Assembly: GCA_036387335.1 (NCBI GenBank)
Contig: DASVTZ010000211.1
Location: 1 to 32,515, forward strand
DNA length: 32,515 nt
Direction: 5' to 3'
Source of the DNA: Longimicrobium sp.
Lineage (GTDB): Bacteria; Gemmatimonadota; Gemmatimonadetes; Longimicrobiales; Longimicrobiaceae
Of the stretch, positions 1 to 31,740 are shown piece by piece. Numbering within the stretch: the first letter of the stretch is position 1; each line of letters opens with the position of its first letter. The translations under genes were made by a program, and so were the position numbers. Below the pieces are notes generated by a model. That model ran no database searches and was not told the DNA's origin. It saw only the letters and a list, made by a program, of their open reading frames with translations.

Positions 1-22
1 ACATGAGGAATCGGTGAACTGC

Positions 23-453
23 AGTGCCAAGTGCCTAGTGCCAAGTGCCTAGTGTGCGCGGATGAAAGTCTCGCGCTTCGAGGAGCTGATCGCGTGGCAG
101 AAGGCTAAGGCGTTGTGTGTGCGGGTTTACCGAGCCACGGCCAAGGGGCAGTTCGCGAAGGACTTCGGCCTGCGTGACCAGATACAGCGGGCTGCGGTGT
201 CCGTGATGTCGAACATCGCGGAGGGATTCGACCGGAATAGTCGTCCCGAGTTCGCGCGCTTTCTGACGTTCGCCCGAGGATCGGCGGGCGAGGTCCGGAG
301 TCAGCTGTACCTGGCGGCAGAACTCGGATATTTGCACCCTGAGGAAGCCGCGGCACTGATCGAAGCGTGCAACGAAGTGACGCGCATCCTTGTCGCGCTA
401 CGCAAATCGCTGGACCGCAGTTACTAGGCACTAGGCACTGGGCACTAGGCACT
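23..453. mobile_element. Candidate IVS-like element: four-helix-bundle gene between inverted heptad arrays
   Basis: Positions 23-53 hold four AGTGCCN heptads plus AGT. Positions 423-453 hold the inverted arrangement, ACT followed by four NGGCACT heptads. The two 31-base arms match at 28 positions as an inverted repeat and enclose one small gene at 62-427, whose TAG stop lies inside the right arm. The unit sits directly upstream of the pyruvate dehydrogenase E1 beta gene. Known four-helix-bundle (S23/IVS) genes are often carried in intervening sequences folded by flanking complementary ends, so a mobile or formerly mobile element is a reasonable inference. No transposase or target duplication is visible. 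Confidence 0.5.
62..427 (+). CDS. Four-helix-bundle protein, 23S rRNA intervening-sequence (S23) family
   Basis: A 121-residue, mostly helical protein. The opening pattern F-E-E-L-I-A-W-Q-K-A, the central R-D-Q-I-Q-R-A-A-V-S-V-M-S-N-I-A-E-G-F block (about residues 38-58) and the following R-F-L-T-F-A-R-G-S-A-G-E-V segment are characteristic of the S23/IVS four-helix-bundle family. Its length is typical. Members form oligomeric bundles; relatives such as Avd act with reverse transcriptases in diversity-generating retroelements, but none is seen here, and the cellular role of stand-alone copies is unknown. The ATG at 62 follows the left heptad array by a few bases and has no clear Shine-Dalgarno. 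Expression may depend on readthrough in the dehydrogenase operon. Confidence 0.88.
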   Translation: MKVSRFEELIAWQKAKALCVRVYRATAKGQFAKDFGLRDQIQRAAVSVMSNIAEGFDRNSRPEFARFLTFARGSAGEVRSQLYLAAELGYLHPEEAAALIEACNEVTRILVALRKSLDRSY

Positions 454-471
454 CTAACTGAAGATGAACGA

Positions 472-1452
472 ATGGCAGTAATTACTTACCGCGAAGCGCT
501 CAACCAGGCGCTCGCTGAAGAGATGCAGCGCGACCCTGACGTCTTCCTCATGGGCGAGGAAGTCGGGGTGTACAACGGCGCTTACAAGGTATCGAAGGGG
601 TTGCTGGAGCAGTTCGGGGAGCTGCGCGTGGTGGATACGCCGATCACGGAGCTCGGGTTCGCGGGGCTGGGGGTGGGCGCGGCGATGACGGGGATCAGGC
701 CGGTGATCGAGTTCATGACGTGGAACTTCGCGATCCTGGCGTTCGACCAGATCTTTAACGCCGCCAGCAAGATGCGCAGCATGAGCGGCGGCCAGTTCAA
801 CATCCCCATCACCTTCCGCGGGCCGAGCGGCGCGGCGCTGCAGCTGGGCGCGCAGCACTCGCAGGCGCTGGAGTCGCAGGTGGCGCACTATCCGGGGGTC
901 AAGGTGGTGGTGCCCGGCACCCCGGCGGACGCCAAGGGGCTGCTCAAGGCCGCCATCCGCGACGACGACCCGGTGTGCGTCTTCGAGGGGGAGATGCTGT
1001 ACAACATCAAGGGCGAGGTGCCCGAGGATGACGACTTCATCATCCCGCTGGGCGTGGCGGACCTGAAGCGCGAGGGGAGCGACGTCTCCATCATCACGCA
1101 CGGCAAGATGATCCACGTGGCGCTCCAGGCGGCCGCGCAGCTCGAAAAGGATGGCATCCAGGCCGACGTGCTGGACCTCCGCTCGCTGCGCCCGCTGGAC
1201 ACCGAGTCGATCATGCGCACCGTCGCCAAGACGAACCGCGTGGTGCTGCTGGAGGAAGGGTGGCCGTTCGGCGGCATCACGACCACGGTGGCCGCGCTAA
1301 TCCAGGAAGAGGCCTTCGACGAGCTGGACGCCCCCATCCTCCGCGTGACGCAGGCCGACGTGCCGATGCCGTACGCCAAGGCGATGGAGCGCGCCGCCAA
1401 GCCGAGCGCGGAGATGGTGGTGGAGAAGGTGAACCGGGTGCTGTACAGATAA
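472..1452 (+). CDS. pdhB: Pyruvate dehydrogenase E1 component, beta subunit
   Basis: A 326-residue transketolase-like beta subunit, full length for the family. With the E1 alpha subunit (not in the window, presumably upstream) it decarboxylates pyruvate and passes the acetyl group to the E2 lipoyl arm. The N-terminus M-A-V-I-T-Y-R-E-A-L-N-Q-A-L and the G-E-E-V-G-V-Y-N-G-A-Y-K stretch are standard for bacterial E1 beta, as are the R-G-P-S-G-A block and the C-terminal V-P-M-P-Y-A-K-A-M-E tail. The ATG at 472 is chosen because the reading frame upstream of it runs through repeat DNA and out-of-frame sequence of the previous gene. E2 follows 99 bases downstream, separated by a large inverted repeat. 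A branched-chain 2-oxoacid dehydrogenase beta subunit is the main alternative. Confidence 0.93.
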   Translation: MAVITYREALNQALAEEMQRDPDVFLMGEEVGVYNGAYKVSKGLLEQFGELRVVDTPITELGFAGLGVGAAMTGIRPVIEFMTWNFAILAFDQIFNAASKMRSMSGGQFNIPITFRGPSGAALQLGAQHSQALESQVAHYPGVKVVVPGTPADAKGLLKAAIRDDDPVCVFEGEMLYNIKGEVPEDDDFIIPLGVADLKREGSDVSIITHGKMIHVALQAAAQLEKDGIQADVLDLRSLRPLDTESIMRTVAKTNRVVLLEEGWPFGGITTTVAALIQEEAFDELDAPILRVTQADVPMPYAKAMERAAKPSAEMVVEKVNRVLYR

Positions 1453-1462
1453 AGAAGTTCCA

Positions 1463-1526
1463 AGTGCCCAGTGCCAAGTGCCTAGTAACCTCGGGCGCAT
1501 CTACTAGGCACTTGGCACTGGGCACT
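1463..1526. repeat. 25-bp perfect inverted repeat of NGGCACT heptads
   Basis: Bases 1463-1487 and 1502-1526 are exact reverse complements, giving a 25-bp stem with a 14-base loop; the right side carries one further heptad to 1533. Each arm is built from the same AGTGCCN units as the arrays at 23-53 and 423-453. It lies between the E1 beta stop and the E2 start, so it would form a large hairpin in the operon transcript. No U-run follows, so a simple intrinsic terminator is unlikely. It could affect mRNA processing or be a gene-less derivative of the upstream element. Confidence 0.85.
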
Positions 1527-1551
1527 AGGCACTTATCAACGGAAGCTCGCA

Positions 1552-2874
1552 ATGGCCACGAAAGTCTACATGGAAGCCCTCTCCCCCACGATGGAGGAGG
1601 GGCGGATCAGCACCTGGCTCAAGAACGAGGGCGACGAGGTCAAGGAAGGCGACGTCCTCGCCGAGGTCGAGACCGACAAGGCCACGATGGAGCTGGTGGC
1701 GCGCGGCTCCGGCGTCCTGCGCAAGCGCATGATCGGCGACGGCGACACAGCCAACGTCGGCGTGGTGATCGCCGTCATCGGCGCGGCGGACGAGGACGTC
1801 TCTGCCCTCACCGGCGGCGGCGATGCGCCGGCGGCACCCGCCAAGGCTCCCGAAGCCGCCGCGCCCGCGCCGGCCGCTCCAGAGCCCGCGCCTCAGCAGG
1901 CGGAAGAGGCTCCGGCTCAGCCAGCAGCTCCCGCCGCGGAGGCCGAGAGCGCCGCGCCCGCGGGCGGCGATGGGCGGGTGAAGGCGTCGCCGCTGGCCCG
2001 GCGCATGGCGGCCGACGCGGGGGTGGACGTCGGCTCGATGCGCGGCAGCGGGCCCGGCGGCCGCATCGTCCGGCGCGACGTGGAGGCGGCGATGCAGGCG
2101 GGCGGTGCGCAGCAGCAGCCCGCACAGCCGCAGGCCGCGGCTCCCGCGCCGCAGCCCCAGGCGGCCGCTCCGGCTCCGCAGGCGGCGGGCGGGCGCGACG
2201 TGCCGGTGTCGCAGATGCGGAAGGCCATCGCCAAGCGCCTTTCCATGTCCAGCGGCCCCGTCCCGCACTTCTACCTCACCGTCGAGATCGACATGGGCGA
2301 GGCGGTGAAGATGAGGGCGCGCATCAACGAGCGCTTCGCCGCCGACGGGGTCAAGGTCTCGCCGAACGACCTGGTGATCCGCGCGGTCGCCGGGGCGCTG
2401 CGCAGGCACCCGTGGGTCAACGCGTCGTGGCAGGGCGACACCATCCGCATGAACGACCGCGTCAACATCGGCGTGGCGGTGGCGGTGGAGGAGGGGCTCA
2501 TCACCCCCGTGATCTTTGACGCGGACCGCAAGGGCGTGACGGAGATCAGCCGAGAGGTGAAGGAGCTTGCCGGGCGCGCCCGCGAGAAGAAGCTGAAGCC
2601 GGAGGAGTACACCGGCTCCACCTTTTCCATCAGCAACCTGGGGATGTTCGGGATCGAGGAGTTCACCGCAGTGCTCAACCCGCCGGAGGCCGCGATCCTG
2701 GCCATCGGCGCCTCGGTGGACAAGGTGGTGGCGGTCGACGGCGAGATGCAGATCCGCCCGCGGATGCGCGTCACCCTCACCTGCGACCACCGCGTCATCG
2801 ACGGGGCCACCGGCGCGGAGTTCCTCCGCACCTTCAAGAGCTACCTCGAAGACCCCATGCTGATGATCGCCTAG
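1552..2874 (+). CDS. pdhC: Dihydrolipoamide acetyltransferase, pyruvate dehydrogenase E2 component
   Basis: A 440-residue E2 with the classic three parts. One lipoyl domain spans about residues 1-80, with the lipoylated lysine at K43 in E-T-D-K-A-T-M-E. A long Ala/Pro/Gln linker follows, then a peripheral-subunit-binding domain at about 143-182 (S-P-L-A-R-R-M-A-A-D...G-P-G-G-R-I). After a second Ala/Pro/Gln linker comes the catalytic acetyltransferase domain at about 213-440, with the active-site D-H-R-V-I-D-G near residues 412-418. It transfers acetyl groups from lipoate to CoA and forms the complex core. The ATG at 1552 has GGAAG eight bases upstream. Neighbours and a single lipoyl domain favour the pyruvate complex over the branched-chain complex. 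Confidence 0.95.
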   Translation: MATKVYMEALSPTMEEGRISTWLKNEGDEVKEGDVLAEVETDKATMELVARGSGVLRKRMIGDGDTANVGVVIAVIGAADEDVSALTGGGDAPAAPAKAPEAAAPAPAAPEPAPQQAEEAPAQPAAPAAEAESAAPAGGDGRVKASPLARRMAADAGVDVGSMRGSGPGGRIVRRDVEAAMQAGGAQQQPAQPQAAAPAPQPQAAAPAPQAAGGRDVPVSQMRKAIAKRLSMSSGPVPHFYLTVEIDMGEAVKMRARINERFAADGVKVSPNDLVIRAVAGALRRHPWVNASWQGDTIRMNDRVNIGVAVAVEEGLITPVIFDADRKGVTEISREVKELAGRAREKKLKPEEYTGSTFSISNLGMFGIEEFTAVLNPPEAAILAIGASVDKVVAVDGEMQIRPRMRVTLTCDHRVIDGATGAEFLRTFKSYLEDPMLMIA

Positions 2875-2897
2875 CCCGCATCACCCGCACATCCACC

Positions 2898-2929
2898 ACG
2901 CCCCGGACAGCCTCCGCCGTCCGGGGCGT
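2898..2929 (+). terminator. Hairpin after the E2 gene
   Basis: An 11-bp perfect stem (2898-2908 with 2919-2929) and a 10-base loop lie 24 bases after the E2 stop. There is no T-run after it, so it is at best a weak or factor-assisted terminator or a 3'-end protecting hairpin. Confidence 0.5.
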
Positions 2930-2949
2930 CGTGCATCCTGCCACGCCCC

Positions 2950-2987
2950 CCCGTAGGGGCCGCCCCACGTGGCTGCCCGTGCCCGCC
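2950..2987 (+). repeat. Palindromic intergenic repeat, type P1 (CACGTGG core)
   Basis: A copy of a family with a GTAGGGGC left flank, a GCC-CCACGTGG-CTGCCC core and a GTGCCCGCC right flank. Other copies are at 13998, 16435 and 32282. This 309-base gap (2875-3183) otherwise holds the E2 hairpin and presumably the promoter of the PPC gene; a weak TAGATT -10-like hexamer sits at about 3110. Confidence 0.8.
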
Positions 2988-3183
2988 ATTGCTCCCGCAC
3001 CCCGCCGTGAGCACCGAACATTGGCGGCGAACGATCCTGCATCAGCCGTCATCGTGCCTCCACCCCTGCAACCGCCGGAGAGAAGCCTTTTCTTTCTTAC
3101 GCCGCACGCTAGATTGGCGACGGCGCACCCTCCTCACCGGGCACCTCCGCACCGCCCGAGCTCACCACCACATCCCGATCGCG

Positions 3184-27315: not shown

Positions 27316-27346
27316 ACTAGGCACTCGGCACTGGGCACTCGGCACT
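27316..27346 (+). repeat. Solo NGGCACT heptad array upstream of psuG
   Basis: ACT followed by four heptads (AGGCACT, CGGCACT, GGGCACT, CGGCACT), the same layout as 423-453, but without a partner arm. Weaker ACGCACT units follow up to the psuG start at 27371. Confidence 0.75.
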
Positions 27347-27370
27347 TTCTTTACGCACTCACGCACTTTC

Positions 27371-28261: not shown

Positions 28262-28839
28262 CCAAGGACGAGCTCCGCCGCGAGGCCCGCCGCCGCATGC
28301 GCGATCTCCTCCCCAGCGAGCGCGCCGCCGCCGAAACGGAGATCGCCCGCCTGGTTTGGACGGTGCCGGAGGTGGCTGCCGCGCGCACCCTCCTCCTCTA
28401 CGCGCACCTCCCGGACGAGGTCTCCACCGACGCCATCGCCCTCGAAGCGCTGACGCGGGGCGTGCACGTCGTCTTTCCGCGCGTCCTCCCCGACTCCCGC
28501 GCGCTGGATCTGCACACGGTCGCGGAGCCGTCGTCGCTGCGGATCGGCGCGTACGGCATCCGCGAGCCGGACCCGGAGCGCTGCGCCCGCGTCCCCGTAG
28601 CGGCCGTGGACGCGGTGCTCGTCCCGGGCCTCGCCTGGGACCGCGGGGGCGCCCGCCTGGGCCGCGGCGCCGGCTACTACGACCGCCTCTTCGCGCTCCC
28701 CGAGTGGCGCGGGTTCCGATGCGGGGTATTCTTTAATGCGCAGGAGTTCCCCGCCCTCCCCACCGACCCTTGGGACGTGCCCCTGCAGGCTGTAGTGACG
28801 GAGGGTGGGGTGGTGGCGGGAATTTGTTCGGCTTTTTAG
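28258..28839 (+). CDS. fthC: 5-formyltetrahydrofolate cyclo-ligase, intact copy
   Basis: A 193-residue ATP-dependent enzyme converting 5-formyl-THF to 5,10-methenyl-THF. The N-terminal K-D-E-L-R-R-E-A-R-R-R-M-R, central L-P-D-E-V-S-T-D and C-terminal R-L-G-R-G-A-G-Y-Y-D-R-L phosphate-binding motif are present, so it appears complete. It starts with GTG at 28258 overlapping the psuG stop (GTGA). The 3' two-thirds is repeated as a truncated copy at 30512-30870, on the far side of a two-gene insert, which makes this gene a likely integration or recombination site. Confidence 0.93.
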   Translation: MTKDELRREARRRMRDLLPSERAAAETEIARLVWTVPEVAAARTLLLYAHLPDEVSTDAIALEALTRGVHVVFPRVLPDSRALDLHTVAEPSSLRIGAYGIREPDPERCARVPVAAVDAVLVPGLAWDRGGARLGRGAGYYDRLFALPEWRGFRCGVFFNAQEFPALPTDPWDVPLQAVVTEGGVVAGICSAF

Positions 28840-28904
28840 GCAGACCCCTGGACAGCTGAGCCGGAGTGCGTGAAGCGAGGGAAAATCACTTGAGCATCAC
28901 GCGC

Positions 28905-30313: not shown

Positions 30314-30511
30314 GAAGAATATCCAGTGTAACCGCCGCTGAGTGCTATCTGGTACAAGCTTGCCCCGTAGCGCCTTCCGGTGCGAGCGGATGGGCCTGCT
30401 TTCTGTTGGTGTATCGTGTAGTCTGCTTGATCGGGCGGAGGATTGGTCAGTAAAGCCTCGGCGGAGCACCTATGTTCTCGGTCATCAACGGGATCTTGGG
30501 CGCCCCGCAAC

Positions 30512-30870
30512 GCGCATGTCGTCTTCCCGCGGGTCCTCCCCGACTCCCGTGCGCTCGACCTGCACACGGTCGCGGAGCCGTCGTCGCTCCGTATCGGCGC
30601 GTACGGCATCCGCGAGCCGGACCCGGAGCGCTGCGCCCGCGTCCCCGTGGAGGCCGTGGACGCGGTGCTCGTCCCCGGCCTCGCCTGGGACCGCCGCGGC
30701 GCCCGCCTCGGCCGCGGCGCCGGCTACTACGACCGCCTCTTCGCCCTTCCCGAGTGGCGCGGGTTCCGATGCGGGGTATTCTTCAGTGCGCAGGAGTTCC
30801 CCGCCCTTCCGACCGACCCCTGGGACGTGCCCCTGCAGGCGGTGGTGACGGAGCGGGTGTCGTGGCGCTC
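30512..30870 (+). pseudogene. fthC: Truncated second copy of fthC
   Basis: Homologous to 28464-28815 of the intact gene. Over about 345 bases I count some 23 differences (about 93% identity), most at third codon positions, with only three amino-acid changes (A to E, G to R, N to S). The first about 69 codons are missing and the frame after Q-A-V-V-T-E leaves the fthC sequence. The R-L-G-R-G-A-G-Y-Y-D motif is still there. An open frame continues upstream to 30443, but without the enzyme's N-terminal part it should not be functional. Confidence 0.88.
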
Positions 30871-30885
30871 TGATCGCCGGACCAG

Positions 30886-30899
30886 CCACTGCCAAGTGG
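30886..30899 (+). promoter_or_regulatory. Candidate operator palindrome upstream of the toxin-antitoxin operon
   Basis: CCACT-GCCA-AGTGG is a perfect 5-bp inverted repeat, 13 bases before the -35 hexamer. Xre-type antitoxins usually repress their own operon through such sites, so this is a plausible operator. It is short and could be chance. Confidence 0.4.
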
Positions 30900-30911
30900 T
30901 TGCTGAACAAC

Positions 30912-30940
30912 TTGCATTATGCTTGCAGACGCACTATCCT
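30912..30940 (+). promoter_or_regulatory. Sigma70-type promoter of the Xre-RES operon
   Basis: TTGCAT (30912-30917) and TATCCT (30935-30940), 17 bases apart. A start near 30947 leaves about 20 bases before the antitoxin ATG, including the AGAGGAG ribosome site. Confidence 0.55.
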
Positions 30941-30966
30941 TGTCATACCCTCACAGAGGAGCTGAC

Positions 30967-31740
30967 ATGGGTGCTACGGCGCTGCTGACCGGGAGCCGGC
31001 AGGAGATCGAGGAGGCCGCGCGCGATCCGAGGATCGAAGAGGCGAAGGCCGCGATCACCCGCTTCAGGCGGACGGGCGCGGTGCGTGACGCCAGCGCCTA
31101 CGCGCGCTCCTGCTACTCGCTCGTGCACGAGGTCGTTCACCACGGATTCCCACGCGAGACGAGGCGCGACGCGCTCCAGGTGGCCGCGGTCAAGGTGATC
31201 GATGCGGGGCTGACCGCCAGCGCGGACGATGACGCGCCCGGAGGGTGGCTGGTCTGGTCGCTTGCCCACGAGCTTCGTGACCTTGCCACGGACTACGGAG
31301 TCGACGTCGAGACGATCCGGCCACCGCGGCACCGGCCGGGGTGGGTGCGCACGAGCCCCGGAATCACGGCGAGCTTCGTGGGAACCCTCACGCAGGAGGT
31401 CCTCCGCGTCACCGGCAGTGTGAACGCGCTGGAGGAGATCCAGCAGATCATGGGCTTGAGCAGCGCGGAGGTCGCGAGGCTGTTCGGCGTGCAGCGCCAG
31501 GCGGTCGACCAGTGGCTCAAGAACGGCGTCCCCGCGGGTCGCATCGCCGACGTGGAGCAGGTGAGGGACGTGGCGCTCGTCCTCTTCGACGAGCTGATCC
31601 CCGAGCGGATTCCGCAGATCGTACGAAGCCCGGCGAAGGGGCTGGGTGGGCGCTCCCTCCTCCAGGCCCTGGCCGGCCCGGACGGTGCCGATGACGTTCG
31701 CGCGTACCTCGCGCGGCTATACTCGTTCGCCGGCAGATGA
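30967..31740 (+). CDS. Xre/ParS-like antitoxin (large form)
   Basis: A 257-residue antitoxin of a Xre-RES module. Residues about 162-190 form a helix-turn-helix (S-S-A-E-V-A-R-L-F-G-V-Q-R-Q-A-V-D-Q-W-L-K-N-G-V-P), and about 195-236 form the toxin-neutralising Xre/MbcA/ParS C-terminal region, ending in I-V-R-S-P-A-K-G-L-G-G-R-S-L-L-Q-A-L. The 150-residue N-terminal half is unusual: most such antitoxins are about 110-150 residues in total. It is helical and not recognised. The ATG at 30967 has AGAGGAG upstream. The stop overlaps the toxin ATG (ATGA), fixing stoichiometry. Confidence 0.85.
   Translation: MGATALLTGSRQEIEEAARDPRIEEAKAAITRFRRTGAVRDASAYARSCYSLVHEVVHHGFPRETRRDALQVAAVKVIDAGLTASADDDAPGGWLVWSLAHELRDLATDYGVDVETIRPPRHRPGWVRTSPGITASFVGTLTQEVLRVTGSVNALEEIQQIMGLSSAEVARLFGVQRQAVDQWLKNGVPAGRIADVEQVRDVALVLFDELIPERIPQIVRSPAKGLGGRSLLQALAGPDGADDVRAYLARLYSFAGR

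Follow-up and report, generated by a model that had tools for sequence, protein, structure and literature searches.

The window, by which we mean the whole 32,515-nucleotide stretch of Longimicrobium sp. DNA analysed here, opens on the forward strand with the 3' end of pdhA (positions 1–17, stop codon TGA at 15–17) and continues with pdhB (472–1452, forward strand), whose 326-residue query was conserved in all 26 genomes searched. These two genes form the upstream and downstream flanks of an insertion, the former aligning with relatives in which the junction is empty. The inserted element is 431 nt long (23–453) and comprises, all on the forward strand, a left arm read from the sequence as four AGTGCCN heptads followed by AGT (23–53), a gene encoding a 121-residue S23-family four-helix-bundle protein (62–427), and a right arm of four NGGCACT heptads (423–453). 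The right arm is an inverted copy of the left, agreeing at 28 of 31 nt (90%), and the TAG stop codon of the S23 gene (425–427) falls within it. The initial annotation had described the four heptads on each side, the 28/31 inverted repeat, the stop codon inside the right arm and the placement within the PDH operon, all of which were borne out, the gene lying between pdhA and pdhB.

Two further features of the window were absent from that annotation. A gene-less palindrome of AGTGCCN-type heptads occupies the gap between pdhB and pdhC on the forward strand (1456–1534, arms 1456–1486 and 1503–1533), with the start of pdhC downstream of it in window positions 1–1600, and a lone NGGCACT array, a dispersed copy, lies on the reverse strand at 27316–27346. 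Next to the latter, at 27350–27366 on the reverse strand, is a short GTGCGTGA octad stretch, so that two repeat types stand side by side. The RNA of the gene-less palindrome is predicted to fold with -57 kcal/mol (z -10.5), and the predicted fold of RNA 10–470 pairs both arms of the S23 element (z -4.7), while an Rfam search of window positions 1–3000 matched no family. As a separate observation, the open reading frames at 28500–28840 and 30470–30990 have a long near-identical stretch (PRVLPDSRALDLHTVAEPSSLRIGAYGIREPDPERCARVPV...) in common, part of a gene being duplicated at a distance of about 2 kb.

Sites matching AGTGCCNAGTGCC with at most one mismatch number 15 in the window against 0.23 expected, and shuffling produced a maximum of 2. 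Many of the loci considered below come from metagenome-assembled genomes, which is the one point in favour of attributing the arrays to chance, low complexity or faulty assembly; given the excess of sites, and the occurrence of the same arms in sequence records of named strains (cyanobacteria, Gemmatirosa, Azospirillum), we consider that explanation refuted.

The S23 protein

Assignment of the framed gene to the S23 family, as originally proposed, is secure: the product of 62–427 matches PF05635 at 2.9e-37 (127.5 bits, curated cut-off 33.8) and TIGR02436 at 1.6e-36 (124.9 bits, curated cut-off 24). An AlphaFold2 model built from 30 aligned homologues is a four-helix bundle with a pLDDT of 95.5, and its closest solved structures are the S23 proteins XCC0516 of Xanthomonas (2gsc, Z 20.1) and BT_0352 (2rld, Z 17.4). 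The next fold after these two is that of Avd, a subunit of the reverse-transcriptase ribonucleoprotein of the Bordetella-phage retroelement (a diversity-generating retroelement, or DGR; 8ub7/8ube, Z 14.7). Three residues, S47, E54 and E77, do not vary across 133 homologues, and N51, A53, A71 and S74 hardly do. A comparison of the PDH S23 genes of three congeners gives dN/dS values of 0.06–0.10, indicating that the protein is under purifying selection.

Inverted arms around S23 genes

S23 relatives were gathered by protein sequence alone from about a dozen phyla. With complementary flanks of score at least 12 taken as arms, inverted arms frame 75 of 108 S23 loci and 2 of the 154 genes used as controls, which lie away from S23 (Fisher 1.7e-36), and when left and right arms are swapped between loci pairing is seen in only 6%. 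Flanks taken from the profile envelope give a similar picture, with 106 of 133 distinct S23 genes armed, compared with 12 among 400 intervals chosen at random; the roughly 20% of S23 genes without scored arms are explained in part by gaps or contig ends. The arms are usually tandem 7-mers and sometimes 8-mers, with a median length of 31 nt, and a period of 7 fits best for 68 left and 76 right arms, followed by 14, 8, 15 and 6. The early suggestion that the element codes for a protein and has ends of its own is thus supported, since such arms flank S23 genes generally.

Among named strains, armed S23 genes are found between the beta and alpha genes of ribonucleotide reductase on plasmid pNe_5 of Nostoc edaphicum (GTAGGGA), between cas6 and cas4 on pANA02 of Anabaena sp. 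90 (GACAGGT), between cas10 and cmr3 in Picosynechococcus, and in Geminocystis, Gemmatirosa and Nostoc ATCC 53789. Exceptions are a Trichormus S23, with an arm score of 11, and the S23 gene between cas6 and cas4 on pPg_01 of Pseudanabaena galeata, which is accompanied by long same-direction AGCTAAA/AGCCAAA arrays and for which scoring found no inverted arms. A bias in the orientation of S23 genes relative to their neighbours was also considered and ruled out (57 of 108 same-same, against 51 of 101 control triples), and the window S23 matched no S23 in the phage records searched. At two loci (L034 on contig C170 and L035 on C188) heptad arms about 400 nt apart have no S23 gene between them but repeats of another family, with GTCATCCTGAG...CTCAGGATGAC ends.

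Repeat words and S23 subfamilies

The window genome carries three S23 genes with three types of arm, namely AGTGCCN (the window), GGGGAAT (contig C118) and a GTGCGTTA-type octad (contig C87). Genome-wide there are 101 matches to the AGTGCCN pattern, 205 to GGGGAAT and 696 to the octad GTGCGTNA, the reversed control for the octad not being neutral. The octad-armed S23 on C87 is also in frame with an 895-residue upstream open frame, possibly a fusion or read-through.

Over 100 armed loci, the arms are the more alike the higher the identity of their S23 proteins (rho 0.38, 0 of 300 permutations), and the correlation is kept when only cross-phylum pairs are compared (Mantel rho 0.40, 0 of 1000). 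S23 proteins of at least 55% identity from different phyla have a mean arm sharing of 7.6, with 24% at 10 or above, against 4.05 and 1% for dissimilar S23 proteins within one phylum and 4.8 and 0% for shuffled arms. The comparison shows that, across phyla, the arm word goes with the subfamily of the S23 and not with the lineage of the host. The check proposed in the initial annotation, whether S23 genes of related genomes are flanked by the same heptad ends, came out positive in that arms are general and negative in that the word differs from one subfamily to another. A single origin of the octad S23 genes was rejected, the tree not being clean; the octad and heptad S23 genes at locus A are sisters, which means that the unit of the arms can switch within a lineage.

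An analogous case may exist in Xanthomonas, where dispersed intergenic GGGAATC heptads are reported to include 70–75 convergent inverted pairs (PMC4692102); the Xanthomonas S23 protein XCC0516 scores 101.8 bits against the GGGGAAT-type S23 and 72 against the AGTGCCN type, which by sequence would place it nearer the former.

The main rival to an active role for S23 holds that the heptad palindromes are independent, or products of slippage, and that S23 genes merely insert in their loops with no action on the repeat. The pairing of protein and word weakens it, as the type of repeat depends, from phylum to phylum, on the subfamily of the S23 and not on the host, and three S23 genes in one genome have three different repeats.

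The PDH site among relatives

The initial annotation had proposed a search for empty sites, and these exist. A compact, empty pdhA–pdhB junction is present in three genomes of the genus, G004 (CGCTGAAG|ATGG), G002 and G009, and in three other members of the family (G011, G014 and G015), so that comparison shows both presence and absence of the element at this site. A second, partial pdhA–pdhB junction in the window's own bin (C103, 3501–5438) is also empty; over 438 nt its pdhB has 94% identity, and this copy probably belongs to a co-binned related strain. In the pdhB tree G004 falls among the carriers (support 0.53) and the PDH S23 genes form one group in their tree (90/58), a combination that allows both lineage losses and repeated insertion. 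CTGAA in G005 and GAGGAATCGCTGA in G008 hint at a target-site duplication where the element sits in the PDH operon, yet their lengths differ and we do not claim one.

The gene-less palindrome between pdhB and pdhC is present in all nine genomes of the genus with an assembled PDH locus, its position kept and its unit differing, and is absent outside the genus in genomes with a readable gap. Its arms pair with a score of 20.3 within a genome against 9.8 between genomes (0 of 50000 permutations), which means that the two arms of the palindrome change together.

Dispersed arrays and copy number

Counts of AGTGCCN matches were in hand before the PDH sites were read. Genomes carrying the PDH S23 have 101 (G000, the window genome), 96 (G001), 179 (G003), 329 (G005), 162 (G006) and 329 (G008), and those with an empty junction have 0 (G002), 17 (G004) and 13 (G009); G007, from whose assembly the PDH locus is absent, has 67. 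For GGGGAAT the order was reversed, the armed S23 genes of the genus being identified first and the arrays counted afterwards. The three genomes then known to have a GGGGAAT-type S23 have 205 (G000), 102 (G004) and 216 (G006) matches, and elsewhere in the genus there are 18 in G009, 5 in G005, 1 in G007 and 0 in four others. G007 has an AGGGAAT-armed S23 yet this single match, in a genome that is 76% complete and in a count that covered the word GGGGAAT and not AGGGAAT, which makes the agreement between GGGGAAT arrays and S23 across the genus good but not perfect. Each of the two separations has a chance probability of about 0.01 if the genomes are treated as independent, which they are not, and because the GGGGAAT carriers belong to one clade their contrast amounts, in terms of phylogeny, to little more than one event. 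With these limits, the comparison of genomes shows an association of copy number with the cognate S23 for both words.

For octads the link is weak. They are frequent in all genomes of the genus except G005, and are common even in G002, which has 115 matches and in which no S23 was found. A third S23 in G001 does have octad arms, of a related word.

At the level of the phylum, 21 of 298 genomes contain heptads of the AGTGC type, and an S23 is present in 20 of these 21, against 159 of 298 overall (p=4e-5, kinship ignored). The reversed AGTGCNN pattern was rejected as a neutral control, since it matches other S23-associated heptad families (26 of 29 genomes); with it added, 42 of 46 heptad genomes have an S23 (p=4e-9, kinship ignored).

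Arrays distributed without relation to S23 genes had been named at the start as one result that would speak against an S23 element. Many arrays indeed stand without an S23, while two of the three repeat types track the matching gene; because array abundance follows the S23 of the same repeat for these two types, the S23-less arrays widen the idea and do not refute it. The same facts bear on the independence of the palindromes from S23. That arrays far outnumber S23 genes, that G002 keeps its octads, that the pdhB–pdhC hairpin persists gene-less throughout the genus, and that rRNA intervening sequences (IVSs) sit on hairpin helices (PMC4990558), all agree with passive insertion into loops; two repeat types rising and falling with the S23 that carries them speak against it, and on balance we think it unlikely.

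A regulatory reading, in which the arrays are operators and S23 is a nucleic-acid-binding regulator of itself and of a dispersed regulon through heptad sites, would account for the specific pairing of S23 type and repeat and for the retention of the pdhB–pdhC hairpin in the genus though its unit changes, and translational control has been proposed for the TAACTGA repeats of Beggiatoaceae (MacGregor 2015, PMC4679880). Hundreds of matches per genome, ranging from 0 to 329 among congeners, fit a turnover of repeats better than they fit a stable regulon, and we hold this reading to be very unlikely.

A proposed selfish cassette acting in trans

The reading we prefer, with a probability of roughly 60%, is that the S23 gene and its inverted heptad ends form a selfish cassette resembling an IVS, whose protein acts in trans on cognate palindromes in the manner of a RAYT on REPINs. 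The gene with its inverted tandem-heptad ends would have inserted between two genes of the operon; its protein would recognise the framing repeat and act in trans on the dispersed gene-less palindromes, which would spread or stay uniform as a result, an Avd-like four-helix-bundle protein standing in place of a transposase. Copying could be carried out by a reverse transcriptase of the host working together with the Avd-like S23, a reasonable guess since S23 shares the Avd fold, or by replication slippage with template switching at hairpins. In the transcript, the long stem formed by the arms would probably lead RNase III to trim the cassette out, as for rRNA IVSs, and such trimming would make insertion inside operons tolerable. 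Binding by S23, mobility of the element and excision from the mRNA are what we infer from comparison of sequences.

Two further points count against the selfish cassette. Under the strict pattern the dispersed AGTGCCN arrays are mostly single arms, with 6 convergent pairs among 40 arrays, and to our knowledge S23 has no recognised catalytic domain. An unrelated host enzyme, such as an IS200/IS605-type Y1 transposase or a group II or DGR-type reverse transcriptase, might instead move the palindromes, with S23 as accessory or passenger; S23 folds like Avd, which partners the reverse transcriptase of DGRs, and REPs, which are also palindromes, are associated with Y1 transposases. We regard this as decidedly unlikely.

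If the selfish-cassette reading holds, it offers a candidate partner for two unexplained matters, what S23 does inside rRNA IVSs and how the dispersed heptamer repeats of cyanobacteria, xanthomonads and other bacteria arose. Because each subfamily is paired with a word, binding assays that use matched and mismatched repeats could put the function of S23 to a direct test.

Comparison with known systems

The closest likeness is to the IVSs of 23S rRNA genes in Leptospira and Coxiella, which have an S23 open reading frame, a length of about 430 nt and inverted ends forming a stem of about 28–31 bp like the window element. The Coxiella IVS is described as 428 nt long with 28-bp stem ends cut by RNase III, and as having tandem GACAGAT heptads just upstream of the S23 frame (PMC4990558). 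The window element likewise combines an S23 frame, complementary ends and about 430 nt; it differs in lying between protein genes of an operon and outside any 23S rRNA gene, its stem being predicted and its trimming by RNase III putative. A direct bridge is provided by Azospirillum lipoferum 4B, where a 23S rRNA gene (Rfam LSU, 2145 bits) on plasmid AZO_p2 contains an S23 that is framed by inverted arms of the heptad type (score 23.5), in support of the initial annotation's likening of the element to an rRNA IVS placed between operon genes. The pairing of word and subfamily and the dispersed gene-less arrays found here are not described for the Coxiella IVS in the passages of PMC4990558 consulted. 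No prior report of a general link between S23 and heptads was found in the open literature searched; heptads at a single Coxiella IVS are already on record (PMC4990558).

The S23 system also resembles REPIN–RAYT systems, in which inverted repeats frame a gene, and palindromes of their family without a gene are scattered in many copies. The RAYT proteins are Y1 (HUH) transposases, and REPs are not tandem 7-mers. The window genome has the dispersed palindromes of the flank family, and the gene framed by the repeats is an S23 in place of a Y1/HUH transposase.

Avd of the DGRs is a four-helix bundle of the same fold as the predicted model of the window S23 (4dwl, 8ub7/8ube; Z 14–15), with 13–14% identity to this protein, whose neighbours are pdhA and pdhB. 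Known heptamer repeats in Xanthomonas, Nostoc and Beggiatoaceae are 7-nt tandem repeats like the AGTGCCN arrays; they include GGGGA(C/T)T in Nostoc (PMC4692102), the P6b heptads of Nostoc trnL (PMC4476775) and TAACTGA in Beggiatoaceae (PMC4679880), for which MacGregor suggested that the mobile element could be a protein binding the repeat. Term searches of PMC4692102 and PMC4679880 returned no mention of an S23 gene, and S23 is proposed here as the partner of such repeats. Finally, the occurrence of S23 genes next to cas4 and cas6 is already on record (PMC3936711), and because on the plasmids analysed here such genes lie between cas genes next to heptad-type arrays, a simple reading is that they look like insertions and not CRISPR components. 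We suggest tentatively, at somewhat less than even odds, that S23 is a large family of sequence-specific repeat-handling proteins with subfamily-matched 7- or 8-nt words, which together with their palindromes would form a distinct class of selfish elements, the rRNA IVSs, at least some of the Xanthomonas and Nostoc heptamers and the S23 genes of cas loci being parts of one system.
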